Origin: Methanospirillum lacunae
GTDB lineage: Archaea > Halobacteriota > Methanomicrobia > Methanomicrobiales > Methanospirillaceae
Length of the DNA stretch: 64,000 bases
Direction of reading: 5' to 3'
NCBI RefSeq assembly: GCF_003173355.1
Contig: NZ_QGMY01000002.1
Coordinates: 806,001-870,000, forward strand
The notes under the pieces are model-generated. The model was not told where the DNA came from, ran no database searches, and saw only the letters and a list, made by a program, of their open reading frames with translations. Position 1 is the first letter of the stretch. Each line of letters begins with the position of its first letter. The position numbers were made by a program, and so were the translations under genes. Below are positions 49,376 to 62,126 of this stretch, in pieces.

Positions 49376-49870
49376 TTACTCATTTGAGATCTGTCGTGTC
49401 AGGGACTTGATCGCCTCTGTGTATGATACAACATCAGGTTTGAGAATAACAACCGGAATATCCACGATTCGTTCGATCAGAGCGGCAAGGATAGGAGCAC
49501 AGATTAGACCTGCGGCCCCCTCTTTTTCAGCTCTGACAGCTGCTACAATACAATCTTCCATCGTGTGAGCAGGATATCCTTTCACCCGGTATTTTTTACC
49601 TTCATGAGAAATTGTTTGATTTCCAATCTCATCAAGTAGGAATTTGGCAGCAATAATCGCGATGGTATCCTGATCATACGGTTCAAGCGCCTGCACTATG
49701 GCACGCACGGTGGACAGGCGGGGGTCACGTTCGCCTGAGGTAATTTTGTAGATCGTTGCAACGGGTATTTCTGCAAGGTCAGCGAGTTCTTTCAGGCTCA
49801 TTTGTTTGCGATCGAGTGCCTCTTCAAGAGCGTCCTTAAACTCCTGTCTGAAGATTGCCCGTGAAAACAT
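49376..49870 (-). CDS. XRE-type HTH regulator with small-ligand sensor-like domain
   Basis: 164 residues. An HTH domain of the Cro/C1 type covers about 10-68 (MSLKELADLAEIPVATIYKI). The C-terminal part, with GAAGLICAPILAALIERIV and PVVILKPDVVSYTEAIKSL, resembles the N-terminal sensing domain of PrpR-like regulators and may bind a metabolite. It is divergent from the coenzyme M operon across 105 bases that hold a palindrome over its own promoter, so it is the natural candidate regulator of both. Confidence 0.85.
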   Translation of the reverse strand: MFSRAIFRQEFKDALEEALDRKQMSLKELADLAEIPVATIYKITSGERDPRLSTVRAIVQALEPYDQDTIAIIAAKFLLDEIGNQTISHEGKKYRVKGYPAHTMEDCIVAAVRAEKEGAAGLICAPILAALIERIVDIPVVILKPDVVSYTEAIKSLTRQISNE

Positions 49871-49975: not shown

Positions 49976-50755
49976 ATGCCTGAAGATATTATTCATGAGA
50001 TCACTATCCTTTCCGGAAAGAATAGAAATGGAGTTCCAGAAGGTTTTGATGAGATCCGTATAAAACCAGGAGATACTATCTCCATTGTTGGTCCAACCGG
50101 CTCAGGAAAAAGTGCTCTCATCAATGATATCGAAATATTTGCAAACCGGGATACTGTTACGGGCAGGAAAATCCTGATAAACGGAGCAATTCCTCCGGAA
50201 TATTTCATTAGAGACCCGGCAAGAAAACCGGTTGCTATGATCACTCAGAATACCCGTTGTCTCTGTGACCTGTCGGTTGAAGATTTTCTCCTGATGCATA
50301 CCAAATCCCGGGGTTACCAGGGTCAGGATCTTGTTGACACCACTATTTCTCTGGCAAATCAGTTCACAGGTGAACCTATCCAAAGAAAAGTCAGAATGAC
50401 CCAGTTATCCGGAGGACAAACCCGTTCACTGATGGTGGCCGATGCCATCCTCATTTCAAACACCCCGATTATTCTACTGGATGAGGTTGAAAATGCAGGA
50501 ATATTTAAAGACCGGGTAATTGAAGCCCTACGCAGATATCACAAAGCTCTTCTCTTTGTCACTCACGATCCACTGGTCTCTCTTCTCTCTGACAGACGGA
50601 TTGTTATGCAGGATGGGGCTGTTGCAAAAGTGCTGACTCCAAATGGCTTAGAGCAATCCGCACTCAAACAGATGCTTGCATACGATGCGGCCATCGCCCG
50701 TGTACGTGAGATGATCAGAGCTGGCGAACTGATTACAAAAGCGGTACCGGCTTGA
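49976..50755 (+). CDS. ABC-type ATPase without membrane partner
   Basis: 259 residues. All ABC motifs are present: Walker A GPTGSGKS (39-46), signature LSGGQ (144-148), Walker B IILLDE (165-170) and H-loop THD (196-198). No permease gene is nearby, and the protein is soluble. As first gene of the coenzyme M operon it probably powers assembly, repair or metal or sulfur handling for a downstream enzyme rather than transport. There is no ribosome site before the ATG, so it may be leaderless. Next gene begins 1 base after its stop. Confidence 0.9.
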   Translation: MPEDIIHEITILSGKNRNGVPEGFDEIRIKPGDTISIVGPTGSGKSALINDIEIFANRDTVTGRKILINGAIPPEYFIRDPARKPVAMITQNTRCLCDLSVEDFLLMHTKSRGYQGQDLVDTTISLANQFTGEPIQRKVRMTQLSGGQTRSLMVADAILISNTPIILLDEVENAGIFKDRVIEALRRYHKALLFVTHDPLVSLLSDRRIVMQDGAVAKVLTPNGLEQSALKQMLAYDAAIARVREMIRAGELITKAVPA

Positions 50756-50756
50756 A

Positions 50757-51461
50757 ATGAGGTTAATAATAGTTGCCGGTCCCCCATCTACTGGGAAGAC
50801 CTCAGTAATCAAACAGATCATCAGATCAATGCCCGATTTCAGGTTCTCGTACCTCAAGATAGATGTGGTAGTGGCTACTGAGGATGAAGAACTTGCAGCC
50901 GAGTTTGGCATCCCAACTAAAAAAGTGTATTCTGGTGATCTCTGTCCTGATCATGCCGGAATCATGGTGATGGATGATGCCATCTCCTGGGCTTCTGATC
51001 AGAAAACAGACTATCTTATCGTTGAAAGTGCCGGTCTTTGTCTTAGATGCACACCATATACAACACAGTCACTTGGTATTGTCGTCCTTTCGGCAATATC
51101 TGGTATTCATTCACCTGTCAAAATGGCACCGATGATTGCCCTCGCTGATATCGCTGTTGTAACAAGGATCGATCTTGTTACCCAGGCTGAAAAAGAGGTA
51201 TTCAGAGAGAAGATCAAATCCATCAGCCAGGGTATAGAAATTGTTGAAACAAATGCCATTCAGGGAACTGGTCTTAGGTTCCTTATCAGAGCAATAAGTG
51301 AAGGCCCGGAAATTACTGATTCCAAGGCTATCACACTCAGAGGAATTCCACCACTCGGGGTCTGTACTGTCTGCATTGGAAAAACGTCCATCGGTTGGCA
51401 GAATCATTTTGGTGTCATCAGAAGACTTGACGGGGCTGATTACCTTTTCAGAGGTGAGTAA
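50757..51461 (+). CDS. P-loop GTPase of the metallochaperone type
   Basis: 234 residues. Walker A is GPPSTGKT (8-15); a VESAG element and TRID (a variant of the NKxD guanine motif) follow, as in HypB, CobW and UreG-like GTPases that insert metals into enzymes. Cysteines occur as CLRC near residue 97 and CTVC near 203, possible metal-binding sites. Coupled on both sides in the operon (1-base gaps), so it is a likely maturation factor for the iron-sulfur or DUF39-ferredoxin proteins encoded next. Confidence 0.85.
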   Translation: MRLIIVAGPPSTGKTSVIKQIIRSMPDFRFSYLKIDVVVATEDEELAAEFGIPTKKVYSGDLCPDHAGIMVMDDAISWASDQKTDYLIVESAGLCLRCTPYTTQSLGIVVLSAISGIHSPVKMAPMIALADIAVVTRIDLVTQAEKEVFREKIKSISQGIEIVETNAIQGTGLRFLIRAISEGPEITDSKAITLRGIPPLGVCTVCIGKTSIGWQNHFGVIRRLDGADYLFRGE

Positions 51462-51462
51462 C

Positions 51463-52158
51463 ATGACAGGATCCATAGATCAAGATCTTCAGAATGTCCC
51501 ACTCACACCAAACTGGGCTCCACCAGGACGGAATTGTGGGGCGTGTGGACATGACTCATGCATAACGTTTATGAATGAGGTTTCTGAAGGTAATGGAAGA
51601 CTTACAGACTGTCCTTTTTATGAACCTCAATCAGATATCAGATCTCACGACCAACATACCGGAAATATACCTCCAGCCAGAAATCTGGATCAGATACCTG
51701 AACAGGACATACTCGGAAACACACTGGATTTTATTCTCATTCCACTCCCGGGCGAGTTGTCCGCACGAAAATTTCTGCTTCCATTCAGACCTGACATGGT
51801 TGAACGGTGGGACATAAAGCCTGGGGACATCATAACCGGCAGACCGATGGGAGCAGGTTGTCCGGTCCAACATGTCGTACAGGTAATTTCTGTAAGCAGA
51901 GTATCAGGTCTTATTACTGGTCATGTGGTAGGGCCCTCCTTCTCCCGAGGACGGGAGGTGAAAGACCTGGAAGCCTATCACATGATAGGATTTGAAGGAA
52001 TTGCTGTTCCCTCATTGAATGAACCTGTCTTTGGAAAACGGATGAGGTTTCTTCCTGGGTTCTGCATGATGAATATCGGACATACCGGAGTAGTGAACAT
52101 GGTTATGGGGACGAAATCCGGTCTCCATGTAAGAGTTGAGGATATCAGGATCCAATGA
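51463..52158 (+). CDS. 4Fe-4S domain protein of the coenzyme M operon
   Basis: 231 residues. The start at 51463 has the ribosome site GAGGTGAG; a longer frame from 51298 is a shadow of the GTPase gene. The N-terminal cluster motif is CGACGHDSC, then Cys about 17 residues on (C25, C28, C33, C50), the four-cysteine layout of the Fe-S domain in the CdhE/AcsC corrinoid proteins. The rest (about 75-231) is a beta-rich domain with two glycine-rich turns; no other cofactor site is evident. It overlaps the next gene by ATGA. A role as electron or cluster donor to the DUF39-ferredoxin protein is an inference. Confidence 0.8.
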   Translation: MTGSIDQDLQNVPLTPNWAPPGRNCGACGHDSCITFMNEVSEGNGRLTDCPFYEPQSDIRSHDQHTGNIPPARNLDQIPEQDILGNTLDFILIPLPGELSARKFLLPFRPDMVERWDIKPGDIITGRPMGAGCPVQHVVQVISVSRVSGLITGHVVGPSFSRGREVKDLEAYHMIGFEGIAVPSLNEPVFGKRMRFLPGFCMMNIGHTGVVNMVMGTKSGLHVRVEDIRIQ

Positions 52159-53381
52159 CCAGACTTCAGGAGATCCGCGAGCGGATCAGGAATAAGAGTG
52201 CCGTTGTTGTTACTGCGAGTGAATTCAAGAAACAGATCTCTGAAAGCGGACAGGATAAAATAATTAAAGACGTTGATGTGGTTACCTGTGGAACCTGCGG
52301 CGTTATGTCAGGGACCTATGCAGTTCTTTCAGTTCCAGTTGCCTCGCCGGGATCATTTCTCCGTGCTGACAAAGTAGCACTTAACGGAGTCCCTGCTATA
52401 CCAGGGCCATGTCCGAATGAACGGCTTGGACTTGTTGACCTCATCGTGTATGGAACTGCCCATGCTTCTTCATCATATGGCGGGGGACATCTGTTCAGGG
52501 ATATCATCTCAAATCATGAGATTCACGTTGATGTTACTGCCGAAAAAAAAGATTTTCAGGCAGATGTTCATGGACATGATCTGCCTCATGCACGTCTTTT
52601 CACAACCCGGAGTACATTTAAAAATTATACCGCAATTATCAACAGATCAGATAAACCTGAAAAGACTATCTTCTCCACCCTCCCTCTTGCAGGAAAGAGC
52701 AGGGAGGCAACGGTTTCAGGATGCGGCGAAATTAACCCGATTGAAAATGACCCATCACTCCGGTTTCTCACTCCTGGCACACAACTTCTGGTAAATGGTG
52801 GAATGGGGTTTGTCATTGGGCAGGGAACACGTACAAGTGTTGCACGTCCAAATATCGCAGTTCATGGAGAAATGACCTCGATGGATCCGGATTATTGTGG
52901 CGGATTTCTCACTTCTGCAGGACCGGAATGTCTGACAAGTATTGGAACTGCCATCCCACTCATTGATGAAAATGTGACCGCCGGACTCATGATCCGTGAC
53001 GCAGACATCCCGATGCCAGTGATGGATATCTCAAACAGGCAACAGGTATCATGCAGTTCATATGACAGGGTCTGGACCGGAACAGCGGGAGAGATCAGGT
53101 ATCATCCAAATAACTGCCTCAACTGTGACCCCTGTCTGGCTGAAAAAATCTGCCCGGTTCATGCGATTACTGGTTCAGGAGAGATAGATCATACACGTTG
53201 TTTCACCTGCGGCACCTGTGTGCATCTTTGCAAGGGCAAAGCGTATACAGGAAATTTAGGAACTCTCGATTTACCTGAAGGAGATGTTCCGATCGTGCTC
53301 CGACAATCTGACCGGCAGAGAGGGGAAAAGATCTCTCAAAAAGCTAAAGAGATGATCCTGAAAGGAGAGTTTCAGATATGA
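52155..53381 (+). CDS. DUF39 (HcyBio) protein with ferredoxin tail, methanogenesis marker 16 type
   Basis: 408 residues. Residues 1-300 are the DUF39/HcyBio fold: VVTCGTCGVMSGTYAVLS, NGGMGFVIGQGTRTS and a conserved central Cys (VSGCGEINPIEND). Residues about 315-365 hold two [4Fe-4S] motifs, CLNCDPCLAEKICP and CFTCGTCVHLC. HcyBio relatives make homocysteine from aspartate semialdehyde by reductive sulfur addition. Here, next to cysteate synthase and ComDE, the matching step would be sulfoacetaldehyde to coenzyme M; to my knowledge a DUF39-type protein has been proposed for this (ComF), which I could not check. Confidence 0.9.
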   Translation: MTRLQEIRERIRNKSAVVVTASEFKKQISESGQDKIIKDVDVVTCGTCGVMSGTYAVLSVPVASPGSFLRADKVALNGVPAIPGPCPNERLGLVDLIVYGTAHASSSYGGGHLFRDIISNHEIHVDVTAEKKDFQADVHGHDLPHARLFTTRSTFKNYTAIINRSDKPEKTIFSTLPLAGKSREATVSGCGEINPIENDPSLRFLTPGTQLLVNGGMGFVIGQGTRTSVARPNIAVHGEMTSMDPDYCGGFLTSAGPECLTSIGTAIPLIDENVTAGLMIRDADIPMPVMDISNRQQVSCSSYDRVWTGTAGEIRYHPNNCLNCDPCLAEKICPVHAITGSGEIDHTRCFTCGTCVHLCKGKAYTGNLGTLDLPEGDVPIVLRQSDRQRGEKISQKAKEMILKGEFQI

Positions 53382-54652
53382 ATTCAGACTCCTATCATCT
53401 GGTCTGTCCTATCTGCGGTACGAGGTTTGATGATGCATACCAGTTAACCTGCCCGTCCAGATGTAATGCTCTCATCAGAGCAGAATACTCAGCACGGCAG
53501 CTGACAATCCGGGATCTTCCTGGAATGTTTAGATATTCTGACTGGCTCCCGGTAAAAGGACATCTTGCCACAAAATCAGCTCCTATCTGTTATCAGAGTT
53601 CAGGTCTTGCAAATGAGCTTGGTTTGAATAACCTCTGGATAGCATTTGCCGGGTACTGGCCTGAACGTCAGGCATATGTTACGAGTGGATCATTCAAAGA
53701 ATTTGAAGCACTTCCCACGATGGTACGACTAGCTGAGCGGGCGAAAGGAGTGATCCTGGTTGCATCAGCAGGAAATACCGGCCGGGCTTTTGCTGAAGTT
53801 TCATCAAAAATTGCCAAACCTGTAATCATAGTCGTTCCTGCAAAAGCCAGGGAACGAATCTGGACAAGTACACCAGCAGAACATATACTCCTTGTCACTG
53901 TAGATGGCGATTATACCGATGCTATCAATCTCGGGAATCAGCTTTGTACCCTTCCCGGGATTTATCCAGAGGGAGGAGCAAAAAATATTGCACGCCGGGA
54001 TGGAATGGGGACTATGATGCTAGAAGGAGCTATGACTATCAGGCATCTTCCTGACTGGTACATTCAGGCTGTTGGGAGTGGAACCGGAGGGATTGCAGCA
54101 TGGGAGGCATCAATGAGACTTGTAGCAGATGGAAGGTTTGGATCTGATCTTCCCCGTTTACTTTTGATACAAAATGATCCTTTTACTCCAATGGTTCATG
54201 CATTTCAGGAGGGCAGACGAGATATCACTCTTGATGATATAAAAAATCCTGAAGATGCCATCTCAAAAGTTCATGCTGATGTACTCACCAACCGGGCACC
54301 TCCATACGGAATTTCAGGCGGAGTATACGATGCTCTGGTGGCAACCAATGGTATAATGACTACTGCGACAACTGATGAAGCTATAAAAGCAGGTGATCTG
54401 TTCAGAAAGACTGAAGGAATTGATCTTGACCCTGCTGCAGCGGTCTGTGTGGGCGGACTTATAAATGCAGTGAAATCCGGAGTTATCAAGTCAGATGAAA
54501 AGATTCTCCTTGCAATAACCGGTGGAGGATATGAAAGAATCCAGAGAGAACTTTCAATGCATATTCACGCACCGGATTTTGAAGTTGATCAGAATACAGA
54601 CAATGAAGAATTAATGAATTCAGTCAGAGAATGGGTGAGCAGGTATGTATGA
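53378..54652 (+). CDS. Cysteate synthase (PLP enzyme, coenzyme M synthesis)
   Basis: 424 residues, related to threonine synthase. A zinc-ribbon-like N-terminus (CPICG...CPSRC) precedes the PLP fold: SGSFKEFEA with the PLP lysine (about 105), the phosphate cup SAGNTGRAF, and VGSGTGG. In methanogens of the Methanosarcina and Methanomicrobiales type this enzyme turns phosphoserine and sulfite into cysteate, the entry to coenzyme M. The ATG overlaps the stop of the DUF39 gene as ATGA. Ordinary threonine synthase is the alternative, but the fused sulfopyruvate decarboxylase next door argues against it. Confidence 0.9.
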   Translation: MNSDSYHLVCPICGTRFDDAYQLTCPSRCNALIRAEYSARQLTIRDLPGMFRYSDWLPVKGHLATKSAPICYQSSGLANELGLNNLWIAFAGYWPERQAYVTSGSFKEFEALPTMVRLAERAKGVILVASAGNTGRAFAEVSSKIAKPVIIVVPAKARERIWTSTPAEHILLVTVDGDYTDAINLGNQLCTLPGIYPEGGAKNIARRDGMGTMMLEGAMTIRHLPDWYIQAVGSGTGGIAAWEASMRLVADGRFGSDLPRLLLIQNDPFTPMVHAFQEGRRDITLDDIKNPEDAISKVHADVLTNRAPPYGISGGVYDALVATNGIMTTATTDEAIKAGDLFRKTEGIDLDPAAAVCVGGLINAVKSGVIKSDEKILLAITGGGYERIQRELSMHIHAPDFEVDQNTDNEELMNSVREWVSRYV

Positions 54653-55751
54653 AGAGCAGGTTGCTGAACTGCTGCACAATGAGGGAATAGAATTTGTAGT
54701 TTCACTTCCCTGTGACAGGACAAAGGATCTCTGTATGATCCTTGAAGATGAATTCAGGTATGTTACTATCTCACGGGAAGAAGATGGCGTAGGTATCTGC
54801 TCAGGGATTTCTCTCATGAACGCCCGCAGTGTTCTGCAGATGCAAAGTTCGGGACTTGGAAACTCACTCAATGCCCTGATGACTCTCCCCGCGTTATATG
54901 GACTGCCCCTCCCAATTTTAGCAAGTTGGCGGGGATATTACCAGGAAAAGATCGCAGCTCAGATTCCATTCAATGAAAAAATTCCAGAACTTCTAACACT
55001 ATATGATATCGCTTATACTCTGATTCTCACTCCTGCAGATATTCCTAAGATCCAGGATGTAATCAAGGATGCTTACAACAATCGCGGGATTCATGTTGCC
55101 CTGATATCACCCCGGGTGTGGGAAGGGTCAGTTCCTGAAAAACGCTGTGAATTCAAGTCACGTGAGAGAGAGACAAACCTGACATATTCCGGGCTATTCA
55201 AAAAACCGGAAATGAAAAGGGCCGATGCAATCAGGACTATTGCATCTTTGCTCAATGATGAATACGTCATCTCAAATATCGGAGTTCCCTCAAAAGAACT
55301 TCATGCAGCCATGGACCGGAAAAGAAATTTCTATATGCTTGGATCATACACCCAGGCGTCACCGATAGGTCTTGGGGTAGCACTGGCAACCAAAGACAAG
55401 GTCGTTGTTCTTGATGGTGATGGAAGCCTGCTGGGAACTGCCATTCTTCCAGTGGTATCTGAAACAAAACCTGATAACCTGACGATCGTATGCCTGGATA
55501 ATGGAGTATACGGCAGCACCGGTGACCAGTGTTCCCCTGCATATCAGACGATTGATTTAGAACTCATTGCCCGGGCAAGTGGTTTTACACATACTCAAAA
55601 GGTGCATACAGCAGATGAACTCACAAGTGCATGGAATCATCAGACTCAAGGACCCAGGTTTATTCACGTCATCATTGAACCAGGGAATAGTTCTGCTCCC
55701 AATATCTCTTACACTCCTCACGAGATCAGAAACCGGTTTTCAGCAGGATAA
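54645..55751 (+). CDS. comDE: Fused sulfopyruvate decarboxylase (ComD + ComE)
   Basis: 368 residues. Residues 1-170 match the alpha part (ISREEDGVGICSG, LQMQSSGLGNSLNAL); residues about 185-368 match the beta part with the thiamine-diphosphate and magnesium motif GDGSLL...CLDNGVYGSTGD. In several methanogens these are two genes; here they are one. The enzyme makes sulfoacetaldehyde from sulfopyruvate, the product of cysteate after transamination. Last gene of the operon; it overlaps the cysteate synthase gene by 8 bases. Confidence 0.94.
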   Translation: MYEEQVAELLHNEGIEFVVSLPCDRTKDLCMILEDEFRYVTISREEDGVGICSGISLMNARSVLQMQSSGLGNSLNALMTLPALYGLPLPILASWRGYYQEKIAAQIPFNEKIPELLTLYDIAYTLILTPADIPKIQDVIKDAYNNRGIHVALISPRVWEGSVPEKRCEFKSRERETNLTYSGLFKKPEMKRADAIRTIASLLNDEYVISNIGVPSKELHAAMDRKRNFYMLGSYTQASPIGLGVALATKDKVVVLDGDGSLLGTAILPVVSETKPDNLTIVCLDNGVYGSTGDQCSPAYQTIDLELIARASGFTHTQKVHTADELTSAWNHQTQGPRFIHVIIEPGNSSAPNISYTPHEIRNRFSAG

Positions 55752-57138: not shown

Positions 57139-57363
57139 CAAAACCACCATCCATGAAGATATGTGAGTAGTATTTTGTTAACTATTTATACCTATCTTAT
57201 ATCAAATCAAAAAAGATCACAATATTGATGCCAATTTATAAAATACCATTAATAATTAAAGATTAATTCAAAAATTAACAAAACCAGATTTCTTGTTTCA
57301 GTGGTCGCTATTGTTAAATACTCATCTGCGTATATCCCCTCCTCACACAAAAAGGGAGGAAGC

Positions 57364-58749
57364 ATGACAGCAGGATGTATCAGAAAACTAATACAGGTAA
57401 TAGGAGTTTTTCTCATTTTTATTACCGGATCGGCTCTGGCATATACAGAAGATATCAATTCACTGCCTTTGGATCATAATAGCATATCTGATACGACTAC
57501 ATCACTCTCCATATCGCAGTCAAGTAGTTCAATATCAGGTATCTCTTCCAGTAAAGTTGTCTCATATACACCATCTGGTGAAAATGCTGCCCAGACCAGT
57601 TCATTGGTACCTCAAAATATTCAGGAGAAACCACCAGAGCGGTGGCTACAGGATACAAAAACGGGAATGTTTTACGATCCAGTCTCACGAACTTACTGGA
57701 GATACGATCCTGTCATCAGAAAATTCACCAATAAAGAGAAAGGATGGTACTTGATCACACGCTTTTCAGAAAGTCAACCCGGACGCATCATCGGCCAGTA
57801 TTATTACGATCCACATTCTGTCAACCTCATTGACATTGACACCGGAGAGTCCATCAATCCCAGTACCATGGAGATCATACAGCCAACACAGACAGCATCT
57901 CCCTCAAGAACAGTGAAACCCACCCAGACGCAGACTCCTGTTCCTCAAGTCACTAATAAGGCAGAGGGCGGTGATACACCTTCCAAATTAGGAACTGATG
58001 GAACCTGCCTGGTCACGTGTCAGGATTGTCCTCAAGGGTACTGTAATGACTGTAATCATAATCAGGTCTGCGACGAGGTAGAAGCAACATCCGGGAGCGG
58101 TACCACAGGGGGACAGAGCGAGAACCCTCAGGGATTGGTTCAGCCTATTGCAAAAGTGACCAGTCAGCAGGGAGGACAGAGTGAAACACCCCAGGTCATT
58201 CCTCAGCCGACGCAGACTCCTGCTTCGCAGGGAGGATTAAGTGAGACAGCTCAGGCTCCGATTCTTGCTATGAAGATGGGGTTAACATGGACAAACGAAA
58301 ACACCGATACCGTTACAAACAACCCCACGTCTCCAACTGCGATTCCTTTTGAAACTGATGTTCAAATATTATCTATCTCCACGTATCACTGGAATAATGG
58401 ACAAGGTGTGCCGGTTCCCGGAACGATCGGGTTGAAGAGTTCTGATGGAACTATTTTCGGACCATGGAAGGCAACCGGTGAAAACGGACAAGGAGGAGTG
58501 CCTAATGCAAGATGGACTGCTGTTCCTGACAATTCAGATGGAGCCGGACAGATTTTAAAGAAAGGAACCTACACGATCATAGATTCAGATAAGTCAACCT
58601 GGTCAGTTAATGAAAAATCAAAGAATCAGGGATTTTGTACAGTACAATACATAAGCGCTTCAGAAATAAATCCTGTAACAAATATCTCTGTTTCATCAGT
58701 CAAACATCCTGATATAGAAAATATTAAACTCGGAGATTTGACATCATGA
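57364..58749 (+). CDS. Exported protein with FYDP repeat domain and Ca-type Cys loop
   Basis: 461 residues. GGGAGGAAGC before the ATG at 57364 and a signal peptide right after fix the start. A Ser/Thr-rich stretch is followed by GMFYDPVSRTYWRYDP and QYYYDPHSVNLIDIDTGE (about 100-175), then a Pro/Thr linker, then CLVTCQDCPQGYCNDCNHN and CDEVE, whose DxNxNxxxDxxE spacing recalls an EF-hand-like calcium loop. The C-terminal 150 residues are beta-rich. A clear paralogue of the first two parts lies at 63190-63981 on the other strand. Its stop overlaps the start of the subtilase-NosD-TPR gene. Confidence 0.82.
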   Translation: MTAGCIRKLIQVIGVFLIFITGSALAYTEDINSLPLDHNSISDTTTSLSISQSSSSISGISSSKVVSYTPSGENAAQTSSLVPQNIQEKPPERWLQDTKTGMFYDPVSRTYWRYDPVIRKFTNKEKGWYLITRFSESQPGRIIGQYYYDPHSVNLIDIDTGESINPSTMEIIQPTQTASPSRTVKPTQTQTPVPQVTNKAEGGDTPSKLGTDGTCLVTCQDCPQGYCNDCNHNQVCDEVEATSGSGTTGGQSENPQGLVQPIAKVTSQQGGQSETPQVIPQPTQTPASQGGLSETAQAPILAMKMGLTWTNENTDTVTNNPTSPTAIPFETDVQILSISTYHWNNGQGVPVPGTIGLKSSDGTIFGPWKATGENGQGGVPNARWTAVPDNSDGAGQILKKGTYTIIDSDKSTWSVNEKSKNQGFCTVQYISASEINPVTNISVSSVKHPDIENIKLGDLTS

Positions 58750-61700
58750 ACATCTTTTTTCGGTTTTCCGGAACAAAATTAATACCGAAAATCGTAACGA
58801 TTTTTTTTATCTTTTGCATTTTCTGCCTTATCTCTCCGGTTTCAGGCATTGGGAGTGTAACTACTGCCGGAGATGAGATCATGAAAACAAGTCAACTTCG
58901 AAACCTTACCGGAGGAGATGGAGATGGTATTCGGGTTGGTGTCATTTCAAACGGAGTAAAACATATTGAAGATGCCCAGAAGACTGGAGATCTCCCTCCA
59001 GAAGTTCATATCATTAAAAAAGGAAAGATGGATGAAGGGACAGCAATGCTTGAGATTATCCATGATATTGCCCCAAATGCTACACTTTATTACGCAGATT
59101 CCGGGGACAATGATCTCAGTTTTTCAGAGGCTATAGACAGCCTTGTAGCTGTAGGCAGTAACATTATTGTTGATGATGTCGGTCTTCTTGAGATTCCGTA
59201 CTTCGAAGACGGGCGAAGTGCTGCACATCTTAAAGAAATTCTTATTCAACACCCTGATCTTCTCTACGTATCTGCGGCCGGAAACAATGGACAACTCCAT
59301 TATCAGGGAATGTTTACCGATGCTGGTGGAGGGTTTAACTCATTTAATGGATCACCCGGAATTCCGATTGATATCAAGTCTGGAGGATTTTTCGGAACTA
59401 TCCTTGAATGGGATGACTCCTATGAGCAGCGTGAAAATCCATATAGTCTGTATCTATATGACCGGCAGACAGGAGAAGAAATAGCGGTAAGTGAACGTAC
59501 AGAAAGCGGAGAAAAACGCTCACTTGAAAAGTTATATTATCAGTACATCGGGGACAAACCATTAAATGCCGAGATAAGGGTGAAAAAGGCAGATGAGGCA
59601 GAACCCAAACTTCTGGAACTTATCCTGAAGACTGATAAAAACCTTGTATCTATTCCAGAAGAATACATGGTCTCTTCAGACTCAATAATCGGACAGGCAG
59701 CTATTGACGATGTGATATCAGTCGCAGCGGTTCCTGCCATTATGACACCAACCATAGAAAAATTTTCTTCCCAGGGTGAAGTTACCATCGCTCACCCATC
59801 ATCTGAAGAGCGTAAAAAACCAGATATTACCGGAATTAACTCAGTAGATGTATCAGGAGCAGGAGGATTTTCAACACCCTTTACAGGTACAAGCGCAGCT
59901 GCTCCTCATATTGCCGGTCTTCTTGCCCTGGAATGGAGTCTCTTTCCCAAGACATCAGGTAAAGATATAAAAGAGGCCATGTTTGAGACAGCAACACCAT
60001 TCGGACAGAAGGGATGGAATCCAGTGTACGGTTATGGCCTCCCTGACGCATTGAAGATGTATGACTATCTACTGAATGCCTCAATAACTGGTAATCAGAC
60101 TCCAACAACTACTCCTTCATCAACTGTCACAGAATCTCCGTCTCCCACCCCTACACCAACAGAGGAGGAAGGAGCACCATTGGTAATCACGCATTCGGTT
60201 GAGATAACGAATCCCGGAGATTATTCACTTGGATCAGATATTCTTGATTCTTCAGGGACAATTATTAGAATCTCCTCATCAGATGTTACACTTGATGGAT
60301 TCGGACACCAGATTGAAGGATTTGCAGTACAGTTCGGACTTGATACTCCTCCCATGCAACAGGGAATTGTGATAGAATCACCGGATAAGAGCAGGCTCAA
60401 AAATATCACAATTAGAAACCTTGCTGTGATGGGAACCTACCTGGGGATTGAAGCCAGGAATACAGACGCCCTCGTGATAGATACCTGTCGTCTTCCTTAC
60501 AACTCAATCGGAATGATCCTTTCGGGTGTAACACAGGCAGAGATCAGGAAGAGTTCAATGAACGGGAATGCCCAGTATGGTATTATATTAGAAGGAGGAA
60601 CCACAGACTCAGTCCTAAGTTCAAACGAATTGAAGAAGAACCTTGTCGGAATGGTTCTTGACGGTGTTATGGGAAATAGAATCACCGGGAACTCAGTAAT
60701 CCTGAGTCATCAGGAAGGAATCCTGCTCAGGGGAGGCTCCACAACAAATACTATCGAGAAGAATACCTGTTCGGGGAACGGAAATGGAGGTATTGTTCTG
60801 AAATCTTCTCTGAAGAATTCGATCCTAAACAACACCTGTGAGCAGAACTCTCCACCCGGGATTTACCTGGAAGAGAGTTCTGAAAACATCATATCAGAAA
60901 ATAACCTGACAGGAAATCTCAGAGGGATTAATCTCTATTACTCAGACACGAATACGATAACCGGTAATTCTATTTTCATGAACAAGATCACAGGGATCAT
61001 GTTCCAGCCATCAGGGCGTAATATCATCAGTCAGAACAAGATTGTGGGAAATAATGGTGAAGGCATCCTCATTTCAGGCAGTGTCACACCTGAAAAAGTA
61101 AACCTAATCTCTGATAATTATCTTGAGAATGAAAATAATGTAAATATCCAGGAGGGTGGCAAGCCAAACTATGCATGGAACGGGAAAAAATCCGAAGGAT
61201 CAAACATAGTTGGAGGACCTTATTTAGGAGGGAATGTCTGGGCATCATCTGATGGAAAGGGATATTCACAGACCTGTTCCGATATTGACGGAGACGGGTT
61301 GTGTGATGCTGCTTATGTTGTTTTACCCGATATTATAGATGAACTACCCCTAAAATATTCAGGGCCCTCCGTCACCCCTTCAGGCCCAATAAATACAGGA
61401 ACCCAGACGAAACCTTTAAACGTTGAGGATCTGGTTACCGAAGGACTTACCCTCTTTGGAAAAGGGAAATATGCAGAGACCGCAGTCATAATGGACAAGG
61501 CAATCGAAAAGAACCCGACAAACTTCCTGGCATGGAGACTAAAAGTTCTTTCCCTTTCCAAAATGAAGATGGGTGATGAAGCCATAGCAACAATAAACAA
61601 GGCTTTGAATCTTTACCCAGATTCAATCATTCTATGGTACACCCTTGGCGACATCTACCTCCTTGATCTTACCGAATATGATAAGGCAATTCAGGCATAT

Positions 61701-62126
61701 CAGAAAGCACTTACCATCGATAAAAATGATACGCATAGTCTGGTAAACCTTGCATTTGCAATCGATAAAACTGGTAGAAGTAATGAAGCACTAGAACTCT
61801 ACCTACAGGCTGTCACCATCAATCCCTCACTCACAGATGCATGGGTAAAGGCAGGAAATATTGAGACACGCGCAAATCATTTCAACCAGGCCATTTTGTA
61901 TTACGACAAAGCATTGAAATTGGATCCTGGAAATGCATTCACCTGGAACAACAAAGGATATGCCCTTTCCTTATCAGGAGACTATCAAGGAGCGGTTCAG
62001 GCATACCAAAATGCCATTCAGATTGATAATTCATATGAAGTTGCATGGACAAATCTTGGTAATGCATATGATGCGCTTGGAATGAAAAACGAGGCGAATG
62101 ATGCCTTTTCACATACAAGAGTCTGA
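58746..62126 (+). CDS. Exported subtilase-like, NosD beta-helix and TPR fusion protein
   Basis: 1126 residues; signal peptide about 1-37. Residues 45-435 follow the S8 subtilase fold: VGVISNGVKH, EGTAMLEIIHDIAPNA, SAAGNNGQ and the serine motif GTSAAAPHIAG (Ser about 383). The Asp and His of the usual triad seem replaced (ISNG for IDTG, EGT for HGT). After a Thr/Pro linker, residues about 480-865 are NosD-type beta-helix turns (NTIEKNTCSGNGNGGIVL style). Residues about 893-1126 form seven TPRs. Export plus a TPR tail is unusual, since TPRs are mostly cytosolic. Coupled by ATGA to the upstream gene. Confidence 0.9.
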   Translation: MNIFFRFSGTKLIPKIVTIFFIFCIFCLISPVSGIGSVTTAGDEIMKTSQLRNLTGGDGDGIRVGVISNGVKHIEDAQKTGDLPPEVHIIKKGKMDEGTAMLEIIHDIAPNATLYYADSGDNDLSFSEAIDSLVAVGSNIIVDDVGLLEIPYFEDGRSAAHLKEILIQHPDLLYVSAAGNNGQLHYQGMFTDAGGGFNSFNGSPGIPIDIKSGGFFGTILEWDDSYEQRENPYSLYLYDRQTGEEIAVSERTESGEKRSLEKLYYQYIGDKPLNAEIRVKKADEAEPKLLELILKTDKNLVSIPEEYMVSSDSIIGQAAIDDVISVAAVPAIMTPTIEKFSSQGEVTIAHPSSEERKKPDITGINSVDVSGAGGFSTPFTGTSAAAPHIAGLLALEWSLFPKTSGKDIKEAMFETATPFGQKGWNPVYGYGLPDALKMYDYLLNASITGNQTPTTTPSSTVTESPSPTPTPTEEEGAPLVITHSVEITNPGDYSLGSDILDSSGTIIRISSSDVTLDGFGHQIEGFAVQFGLDTPPMQQGIVIESPDKSRLKNITIRNLAVMGTYLGIEARNTDALVIDTCRLPYNSIGMILSGVTQAEIRKSSMNGNAQYGIILEGGTTDSVLSSNELKKNLVGMVLDGVMGNRITGNSVILSHQEGILLRGGSTTNTIEKNTCSGNGNGGIVLKSSLKNSILNNTCEQNSPPGIYLEESSENIISENNLTGNLRGINLYYSDTNTITGNSIFMNKITGIMFQPSGRNIISQNKIVGNNGEGILISGSVTPEKVNLISDNYLENENNVNIQEGGKPNYAWNGKKSEGSNIVGGPYLGGNVWASSDGKGYSQTCSDIDGDGLCDAAYVVLPDIIDELPLKYSGPSVTPSGPINTGTQTKPLNVEDLVTEGLTLFGKGKYAETAVIMDKAIEKNPTNFLAWRLKVLSLSKMKMGDEAIATINKALNLYPDSIILWYTLGDIYLLDLTEYDKAIQAYQKALTIDKNDTHSLVNLAFAIDKTGRSNEALELYLQAVTINPSLTDAWVKAGNIETRANHFNQAILYYDKALKLDPGNAFTWNNKGYALSLSGDYQGAVQAYQNAIQIDNSYEVAWTNLGNAYDALGMKNEANDAFSHTRV

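Follow-up and report, generated by a model that had tools for sequence, protein, structure and literature searches.

Coenzyme M is required for all methane formation by methanogens. The window analysed here, a stretch of 64,000 nucleotides of the Methanospirillum lacunae genome (contig NZ_QGMY01000002.1, positions 806,001 to 870,000), contains on its + strand, at 49976-55751, six coupled open reading frames (ORFs) in which genes for coenzyme M synthesis follow those for a permease-less ABC ATPase, a G3E GTPase and a COG2000-type Fe-S protein. These leading three genes are referred to below as the trio. The original prediction of six genes with 1-base gaps or short overlaps is confirmed, with gaps of 1 base and overlaps of 4 to 8 bases:

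49976..50755, + strand, permease-less ABC ATPase, 259 aa; ABC_tran over cut-off, motifs present in alignments
50757..51461, + strand, G3E-type GTPase, 234 aa; 1-base gap after the ATPase gene, cobW Pfam domain over cut-off
51463..52158, + strand, COG2000-type Fe-S protein, 231 aa, start ATG at 51463; 1-base gap after the GTPase gene, FeS Pfam domain
52155..53381, + strand, ComF (methanogenesis marker 16), COG1900 plus ferredoxin domain, clade I, has C259; 4-base overlap with the Fe-S gene
53378..54652, + strand, cysteate synthase; 4-base overlap with the ComF gene, TIGR03844 613 bits, cut-off 325
54645..55751, + strand, fused sulfopyruvate decarboxylase ComDE; 8-base overlap, TIGR03845 202 bits and TIGR03846 240 bits, both over cut-off

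As originally proposed, cysteate synthase and ComDE make sulfoacetaldehyde, and the DUF39-ferredoxin protein ComF (TIGR03287, 531 bits, cut-off 364) catalyses the aldehyde-to-thiol step, ComF having been shown genetically to be the main coenzyme M synthase in Methanosarcina acetivorans (Chadwick et al. 2025, PMC12068725). The ComF reaction needs two to four electrons, and the source, oxidation state and carrier of the coenzyme M thiol sulfur were presented as an open question (PMC12068725). The trio genes were said originally to have no known place in the pathway, and the literature agrees: genes for an ATPase, a Ni-binding GTPase and a COG2000 Fe-S protein, the same three families, are often colocalized with coenzyme M genes and their role is given as unknown (PMC12068725, Fig 2 legend). 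The co-location is therefore already published, with the function of the trio genes left open. That study tests only ComF; added here are the optional distribution of the trio, its cassettes with ComF, its SsuA-like and desulfurase partners, and its bacterial copies. A congener, M. purgamenti, grows without added coenzyme M (PMC11346949), as expected for a working coenzyme M operon.

The order ATPase-GTPase-FeS-ComF-cysteate synthase-ComDE recurs across many Methanomicrobiales (gene orders, ARRANGEMENTS) and the arrangement is therefore not due to chance. All genes were counted in the same set of 197 Halobacteriota genomes. ComF scored over cut-off in 90, cysteate synthase over cut-off in 84, the GTPase was found in 53 and the Fe-S gene in 48, of which 44 also have ComF and 45 cysteate synthase (Fisher p 5e-14 and 2e-17, for related genomes and uncorrected for kinship). 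The GTPase gene lies within 2.5 kb of the Fe-S gene in 49/49 cases, and the ATPase gene adjoins the GTPase gene in most loci opened, which is not a genome-wide count; none was seen in genome G026. If genes within 8 kb count as near, 31 of the 49 Fe-S genes have both ComF and cysteate synthase for neighbours, 10 have cysteate synthase alone, 2 have ComF alone and 6 have neither, so that cysteate synthase accompanies 41/49 trios and ComF 33/49. The strict coupling originally proposed does not hold, however, as the Fe-S gene is missing from 46 of the 90 ComF genomes, including every Methanosarcina in the survey, only 33 of 91 ComF genes are near a trio, and the trio is missing from close relatives of genomes that have it. 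Absence or scattering of the three genes in most ComF genomes was to have told against the proposal, and about half of this was found: the trio is absent from 51% of them and never scattered. These distributions are for Halobacteriota; class I methanogens (Methanobacteriales, Methanococcales) were not represented among the best 80 contig matches. A trio search in the phylum of a Methanofastidiosia metagenome-assembled genome (MAG) gave 0/115 genomes, with no positive control in that set, and in the phylum of the mislabelled MAG L168 the only positive among 296 genomes was L168 itself. Three MAGs titled Nitrospirae, Desulfobacteraceae and Nitrosotalea (L168, L179 and L127, respectively) bear methanogen-type ComF contigs and are probably binning errors.

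The trio is found in several different gene orders. Methanosarcinaceae other than Methanosarcina have cysteate synthase-ATPase-GTPase-FeS-ComD-ComE, the ComF gene lying in convergent orientation or at a distance, and in three genomes (G089, G142, G219) cysteate synthase-ComD-ComE occurs without the trio that their congeners have in between. Methanosarcina strains 2.H.T.1A.6 and DH2 have an ATPase-GTPase-FeS-ComF cassette plus a second, trio-less ComF beside ComDE and cysteate synthase; such cassettes, which include neither cysteate synthase nor ComDE, are also present in Methanosarcina UBA5 and fen_51. In genome G213, one contig carries ComF with the trio and another ComF with cysteate synthase without it. 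Locus L113 has trio-ComF-ComA-ComB-ComC-ComDE, the phosphoenolpyruvate (PEP) route, with no cysteate synthase in the cluster; its 2-phosphosulfolactate-phosphatase-like ComB and sulfolactate-dehydrogenase-like ComC both score below cut-off. The separate cassettes establish a real tie to the coenzyme M-forming ComF, as had been suggested, and with the PEP-route cluster indicate that the tie is to ComF rather than to any one upstream route. In a quick tree with SH-aLRT (approximate likelihood-ratio) support only, as for the GTPase tree below, ComF divides into clade I (38 rows, 30 with a trio) and clade II (60 rows, 20 with a trio), with trio presence requiring 10 changes; every cassette ComF belongs to clade I, well separated from native Methanosarcina ComF.

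Copies of the trio also occur with sulfur-handling genes. A second trio in the M. lacunae genome (G000; C9:109615-111713, in the region C9:108650-111713 = L033:8650-11713) adjoins genes for a 315-aa SsuA-like protein, a MoaD-like protein, a ThiF-like protein and a TauE sulfite exporter, and similar loci are present in genomes G057, G070 and G102. In G015 and G033, trio-cysteate synthase-ComDE is accompanied by an SsuA-like gene with no ComF in the string, the G015 genome having no ComF at all, and G036 has a lone trio in a genome without ComF and without cysteate synthase. In Methanocella (L090), the coupled string ATPase-GTPase-cysteine desulfurase-FeS has MoaD, ThiF, SsuA-like and second desulfurase genes beside it; L205 has desulfurase-IscU-SsuA-like-trio ATPase. 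In the phylum of a MAG titled Desulfobacteraceae, the GTPase is present in 10/198 genomes and ATPase-GTPase-FeS in three (L302-L304), with neighbours that are bacterial (MurJ and GlmM, by eye). Two of these three are beside Rrf2 regulators and one has a cysteine desulfurase gene between the GTPase and Fe-S genes, L302 being ATPase-GTPase-cysteine desulfurase-FeS behind an Rrf2 regulator. The GTPase tree has three parts: type 1, type 2 (Methanosarcinales) and paralogues that lack an Fe-S gene. Within type 1, SsuA-linked trios and the Methanosarcina cassettes form one group, from which only the Methanocella trio stands apart. Trios thus exist without adjacent coenzyme M genes, even in bacteria with a cysteine desulfurase, and the original view of a system dedicated to coenzyme M is not supported. 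The trio is a portable unit that is optional and neither strictly coupled nor dedicated to coenzyme M, a conclusion that is new here. Two assignments were also rejected: dedication to ComF, as stated, is ruled out by the absence of the trio from half of the ComF genomes and its presence without coenzyme M genes, and a tie to cysteate synthase alone by the cassettes that lack this gene and by the ComA-route cluster.

The original family calls hold for the ABC ATPase, the DUF39-ferredoxin protein, cysteate synthase and ComDE. The ATPase is placed among ABC ATPases by PF00005, over cut-off, and by Walker A (GPTGSGKS), signature (LSGGQ), Walker B (LLDE) and H-loop motifs that are invariant in alignments; a family-specific N-terminal ITILxGxxxxGxxE is common to all ATPases aligned, including paralogues. 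With no membrane protein encoded in the operon, nor within the trio at the loci inspected, it does not qualify as part of an ABC transporter. It resembles SufC/SmsC of the SUF system as a permease-less ABC ATPase working with Fe-S or sulfur chemistry, which is known for Suf and proposed here, but no SufB-type scaffold is encoded within the trio at the loci inspected, its partner is a G3E GTPase, and the Methanocella locus holds separate SufC and SufB-type genes elsewhere (by eye). The trio is therefore not classed as a SUF system.

The GTPase, originally called HypB/CobW-like, belongs to the G3E family (PF02492, 46 bits, cut-off 20.7) but is not HypB/CobW proper, scoring far below the cut-offs for HypB (TIGR00073, 52.5 against 121.2 bits) and UreG (TIGR00101, 22.7 against 204.2 bits). 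The CxCC motif of the COG0523/CobW subfamily (as defined in PMC9164220) is absent from its sequence, and no NCBIfam model scored above cut-off for it or for its cytosolic solute-binding protein (SBP) partner. It has an invariant ESAG G3 motif, CPDH, ESAGLCxRC and a C-terminal CTxCxG(K/E); CPDH, ESAGLCxRC and C(T/S)xCxG are common to all GTPases compared, paralogues included. In common with HypB and UreG are the P-loop G3E fold family, the ESAG-type G3 motif and a cysteine-histidine metal-type motif, whereas the ABC ATPase partner (in most loci opened), its own C-terminal CxxC and the lack of a hydrogenase or urease partner set it apart.

Likeness of the Fe-S protein to CdhE/AcsC, the large subunit of the corrinoid iron-sulfur protein (CFeSP), is limited to an N-terminal domain of ~50 residues (PDB 4djd, E 4.5e-8), in which C25, C28, C33 and C50 form a four-cysteine, CFeSP-type [4Fe-4S] motif (PF04060, 34.7 bits, cut-off 23). 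The corrinoid-binding and TIM-barrel domains of CFeSP are absent from this 231-aa protein, the original CdhE-type call thus standing only in part. The AlphaFold2 model has a second, beta-rich domain with C133/H137 and C201/H207 pairs, for which no clear fold relative was found (Foldseek best E 0.12; VIA best Z 5.7 over 63 residues), a missing match that is no proof of a new fold. All eight residues are invariant from methanogens to bacteria. In ComF, C259 is a sequence-based lead for a trio-linked residue: it is present in 48/48 rows with a coenzyme M-linked trio, 0/2 with an unlinked trio and 15/49 with no trio, and in 17/17 further trio-adjacent loci that partly overlap the first set. An N-terminal CxTC, promising as a trio marker in one alignment, was rejected as variable within trio-bearing rows.

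The recurrent cysteine desulfurase, sulfur carriers and sulfonate-type proteins, together with the many cysteines of the GTPase, the lack of a permease for the ATPase and the existence of ComF cassettes, lead us to favour, tentatively, a reading of the trio as a portable and facultative nucleoside triphosphate (NTP)-driven machine that delivers sulfur, as persulfide or Fe-S, and has been recruited to ComF in some methanogens. The sulfur, released from cysteine by the action of a cysteine desulfurase or else drawn from sulfide, would be taken up by the Fe-S protein, the second domain of which bears the two invariant Cys-His pairs. The cysteine-rich GTPase could act as a metallochaperone-type switch, with the permease-less ATPase powering loading and release in a manner like that of SufC. 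The cargo would then pass to an acceptor, in this operon ComF, which converts sulfoacetaldehyde to coenzyme M; at other loci the acceptor may be the cytosolic SsuA-like protein. We infer sulfur as the cargo, the direction of transfer and the roles of both NTPases. A general device for sulfur or metal delivery is more likely than one dedicated to coenzyme M, because the trio is optional and is found with sulfur-handling genes elsewhere, even in bacteria. Travelling with ComF, it is a concrete and directly testable candidate for the supply of the coenzyme M thiol sulfur.

Several observations weigh against sulfur delivery to ComF. ComF works in vivo in Methanosarcina (PMC12068725) with the trio absent, as it is in half of the ComF genomes, and delivery by the trio is therefore not needed for the ComF reaction. 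Most coenzyme M-linked trio loci have no adjacent cysteine desulfurase gene; in the Methanotrichaceae-like f22 genomes the trio follows cysteate synthase with ComF elsewhere, and in G211 it is likewise with cysteate synthase and ComF is elsewhere. The C259 pattern comes down to some two changes on the tree and is not significant when kinship is corrected for. The closest relatives of the GTPase, moreover, point to metals and not sulfur, being pairs near heavy-metal-chelation and ZnuA-type genes. Such paralogous GTPase-ATPase pairs adjoin DUF364/DUF4213 heavy-metal-chelation genes (L099), and in Fusobacterium vincentii DUF1858-SBP_bac_6, GTPase and ATPase genes stand in a row before ZnuA-type genes. 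Others (L097, L098, L102) have a cytosolic SBP_bac_6 protein, mostly fused to DUF1858, and with L283:7823-10804 (cytosolic SBP_bac_6, G3E GTPase and ABC ATPase) constitute a permease-less set conserved in bacteria and methanogens. The literature had nothing decisive on DUF1858 systems.

The SsuA-like protein starts in its first strand with no signal peptide, and is hence called cytosolic. Its model (mean predicted local distance difference test, pLDDT, 74) is of SBP fold, with sulfonate-bound SsuA and the SBP-fold enzyme Thi5 as its closest matches. It shares with the alkanesulfonate-binding protein SsuA this fold (Foldseek E 1.7e-15 to 3ksx) and Pfam NMT1_2, but differs in having no signal peptide or permease and many invariant His and Cys residues, and scores below the SsuA family cut-off (TIGR01728, 94 against 163.5 bits). 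The gene is present in 31/197 genomes: in 6/7 that have cysteate synthase over cut-off but no ComF, the seventh being an 86% complete MAG, and in 15/77 that have both (Fisher p 8e-4, kinship uncorrected). Translational coupling of this gene to preceding cysteate synthase and ComDE genes is seen in G187 and G220. Cysteate synthase-ComDE-SsuA-like strings occur in genomes without ComF (L195:5006-8828, L196:7364-10628, L197:6528-9675), in one followed by genes for a secreted SBP, a permease and an ATPase. In Methanosarcinaceae (L200, L202, L207, L282), SsuA-like, MoaD, threonine-synthase-like and ThiF genes are beside sulfate permease-like, sulfite reductase-like and CysH-, CysD- and CysN-type genes, a neighbourhood that is likely a sulfate assimilation island. 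The literature had nothing decisive on the coenzyme M needs of Methanoregula or on a cytosolic SsuA-like protein in methanogens.

These data raise a broader proposal that we regard as rather unlikely in its entirety: that the ATPase-GTPase pair is an undescribed, widespread cytosolic class with an exchangeable third protein, often of cytosolic SBP fold (SsuA-like, DUF1858-SBP_bac_6), that loads sulfur, sulfonate or metal onto enzymes, and that the SsuA-like protein takes the place of ComF without being homologous to it. Such a stand-in would explain coenzyme M synthesis in methanogens that have cysteate synthase and ComDE and lack ComF, and this lead thus offers an answer to how they complete the pathway. 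By analogy with the proposal for M. acetivorans, L-ASST could also substitute for ComF in these genomes. Should the same pair indeed serve metals or sulfur together with cytosolic binding proteins that are interchangeable, and do so in bacteria as well, it would be a new branch of NTPase metallochaperones.

Among the alternatives to sulfur delivery, it is unlikely that the trio is a maturation factor which, like HypB and UreG in the case of nickel enzymes, inserts or repairs a metal or Fe-S centre in clade I ComF. Such a role would account for the CPDH and CxxC motifs of the GTPase and for its membership of the G3E family, whose members are metallochaperones (PMC9164220), for cassettes that move as four genes and for the metal genes beside paralogous pairs, but the ferredoxin cysteines are identical in ComF with and without a trio, and trios occur without ComF nearby, in ComF-less genomes (G015, G036) and in bacteria. 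We consider it improbable that the trio supplies sulfite or sulfonate to the enzyme that consumes sulfite, whether cysteate synthase or ComA, with the SsuA-like protein carrying sulfite or sulfonate in the cytosol. This would suit the cysteate synthase-trio order of Methanosarcinaceae and Methanotrichaceae-like genomes, the ComF-less strings of G015 and G033, the SsuA-like genes beside those for assimilatory sulfate reduction and the structural match to sulfonate-binding SsuA; the Methanosarcina cassettes, however, have ComF but neither cysteate synthase nor ComA, and in G213 the trio is with the ComF that lacks cysteate synthase, not with the one that has it. More improbable again is an ATP-driven supply of low-potential electrons to ComF, with the CFeSP-type [4Fe-4S] cluster as carrier: ComF needs electrons (PMC12068725) and has a ferredoxin domain of its own, but it works without the trio, and the Cys/His-bearing second domain and desulfurase neighbours would be left unexplained. 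A G3E-kind device for zinc, iron, nickel or cobalt homeostasis with no direct role in sulfur metabolism, its coenzyme M linkage being regulatory or historical, is the least probable. The paralogous pairs that adjoin DUF364/DUF4213, Peripla_BP_2 or ZnuA-type genes speak for it, but these pairs have no Fe-S protein, and trios with one cluster with coenzyme M and sulfur genes.

Upstream of the operon, the window encodes one divergent gene:

49376..49870, - strand, regulator with an HTH_3 domain (Pfam) and a C-terminal domain

Its homologues adjoin coenzyme M or sulfonate clusters, with the trio present or absent (L039, L045, L122, L147, L156, L195, L210), and it is a candidate regulator of coenzyme M biosynthesis. 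Behind coenzyme M clusters of the anaerobic methanotroph ANME-1 type (L104:13203-15972, L122:12899-15466, L147:12952-15520) lie the genes of a complete taurine/sulfonate-type ABC importer (signal-bearing SBP, permease and ATPase), which perhaps carries coenzyme M or another sulfonate. Downstream of the M. lacunae operon, at 57301-62126 in the window, are large surface-protein genes, one of them subtilase-like with repeat and TPR (tetratricopeptide repeat)-like parts (by eye).

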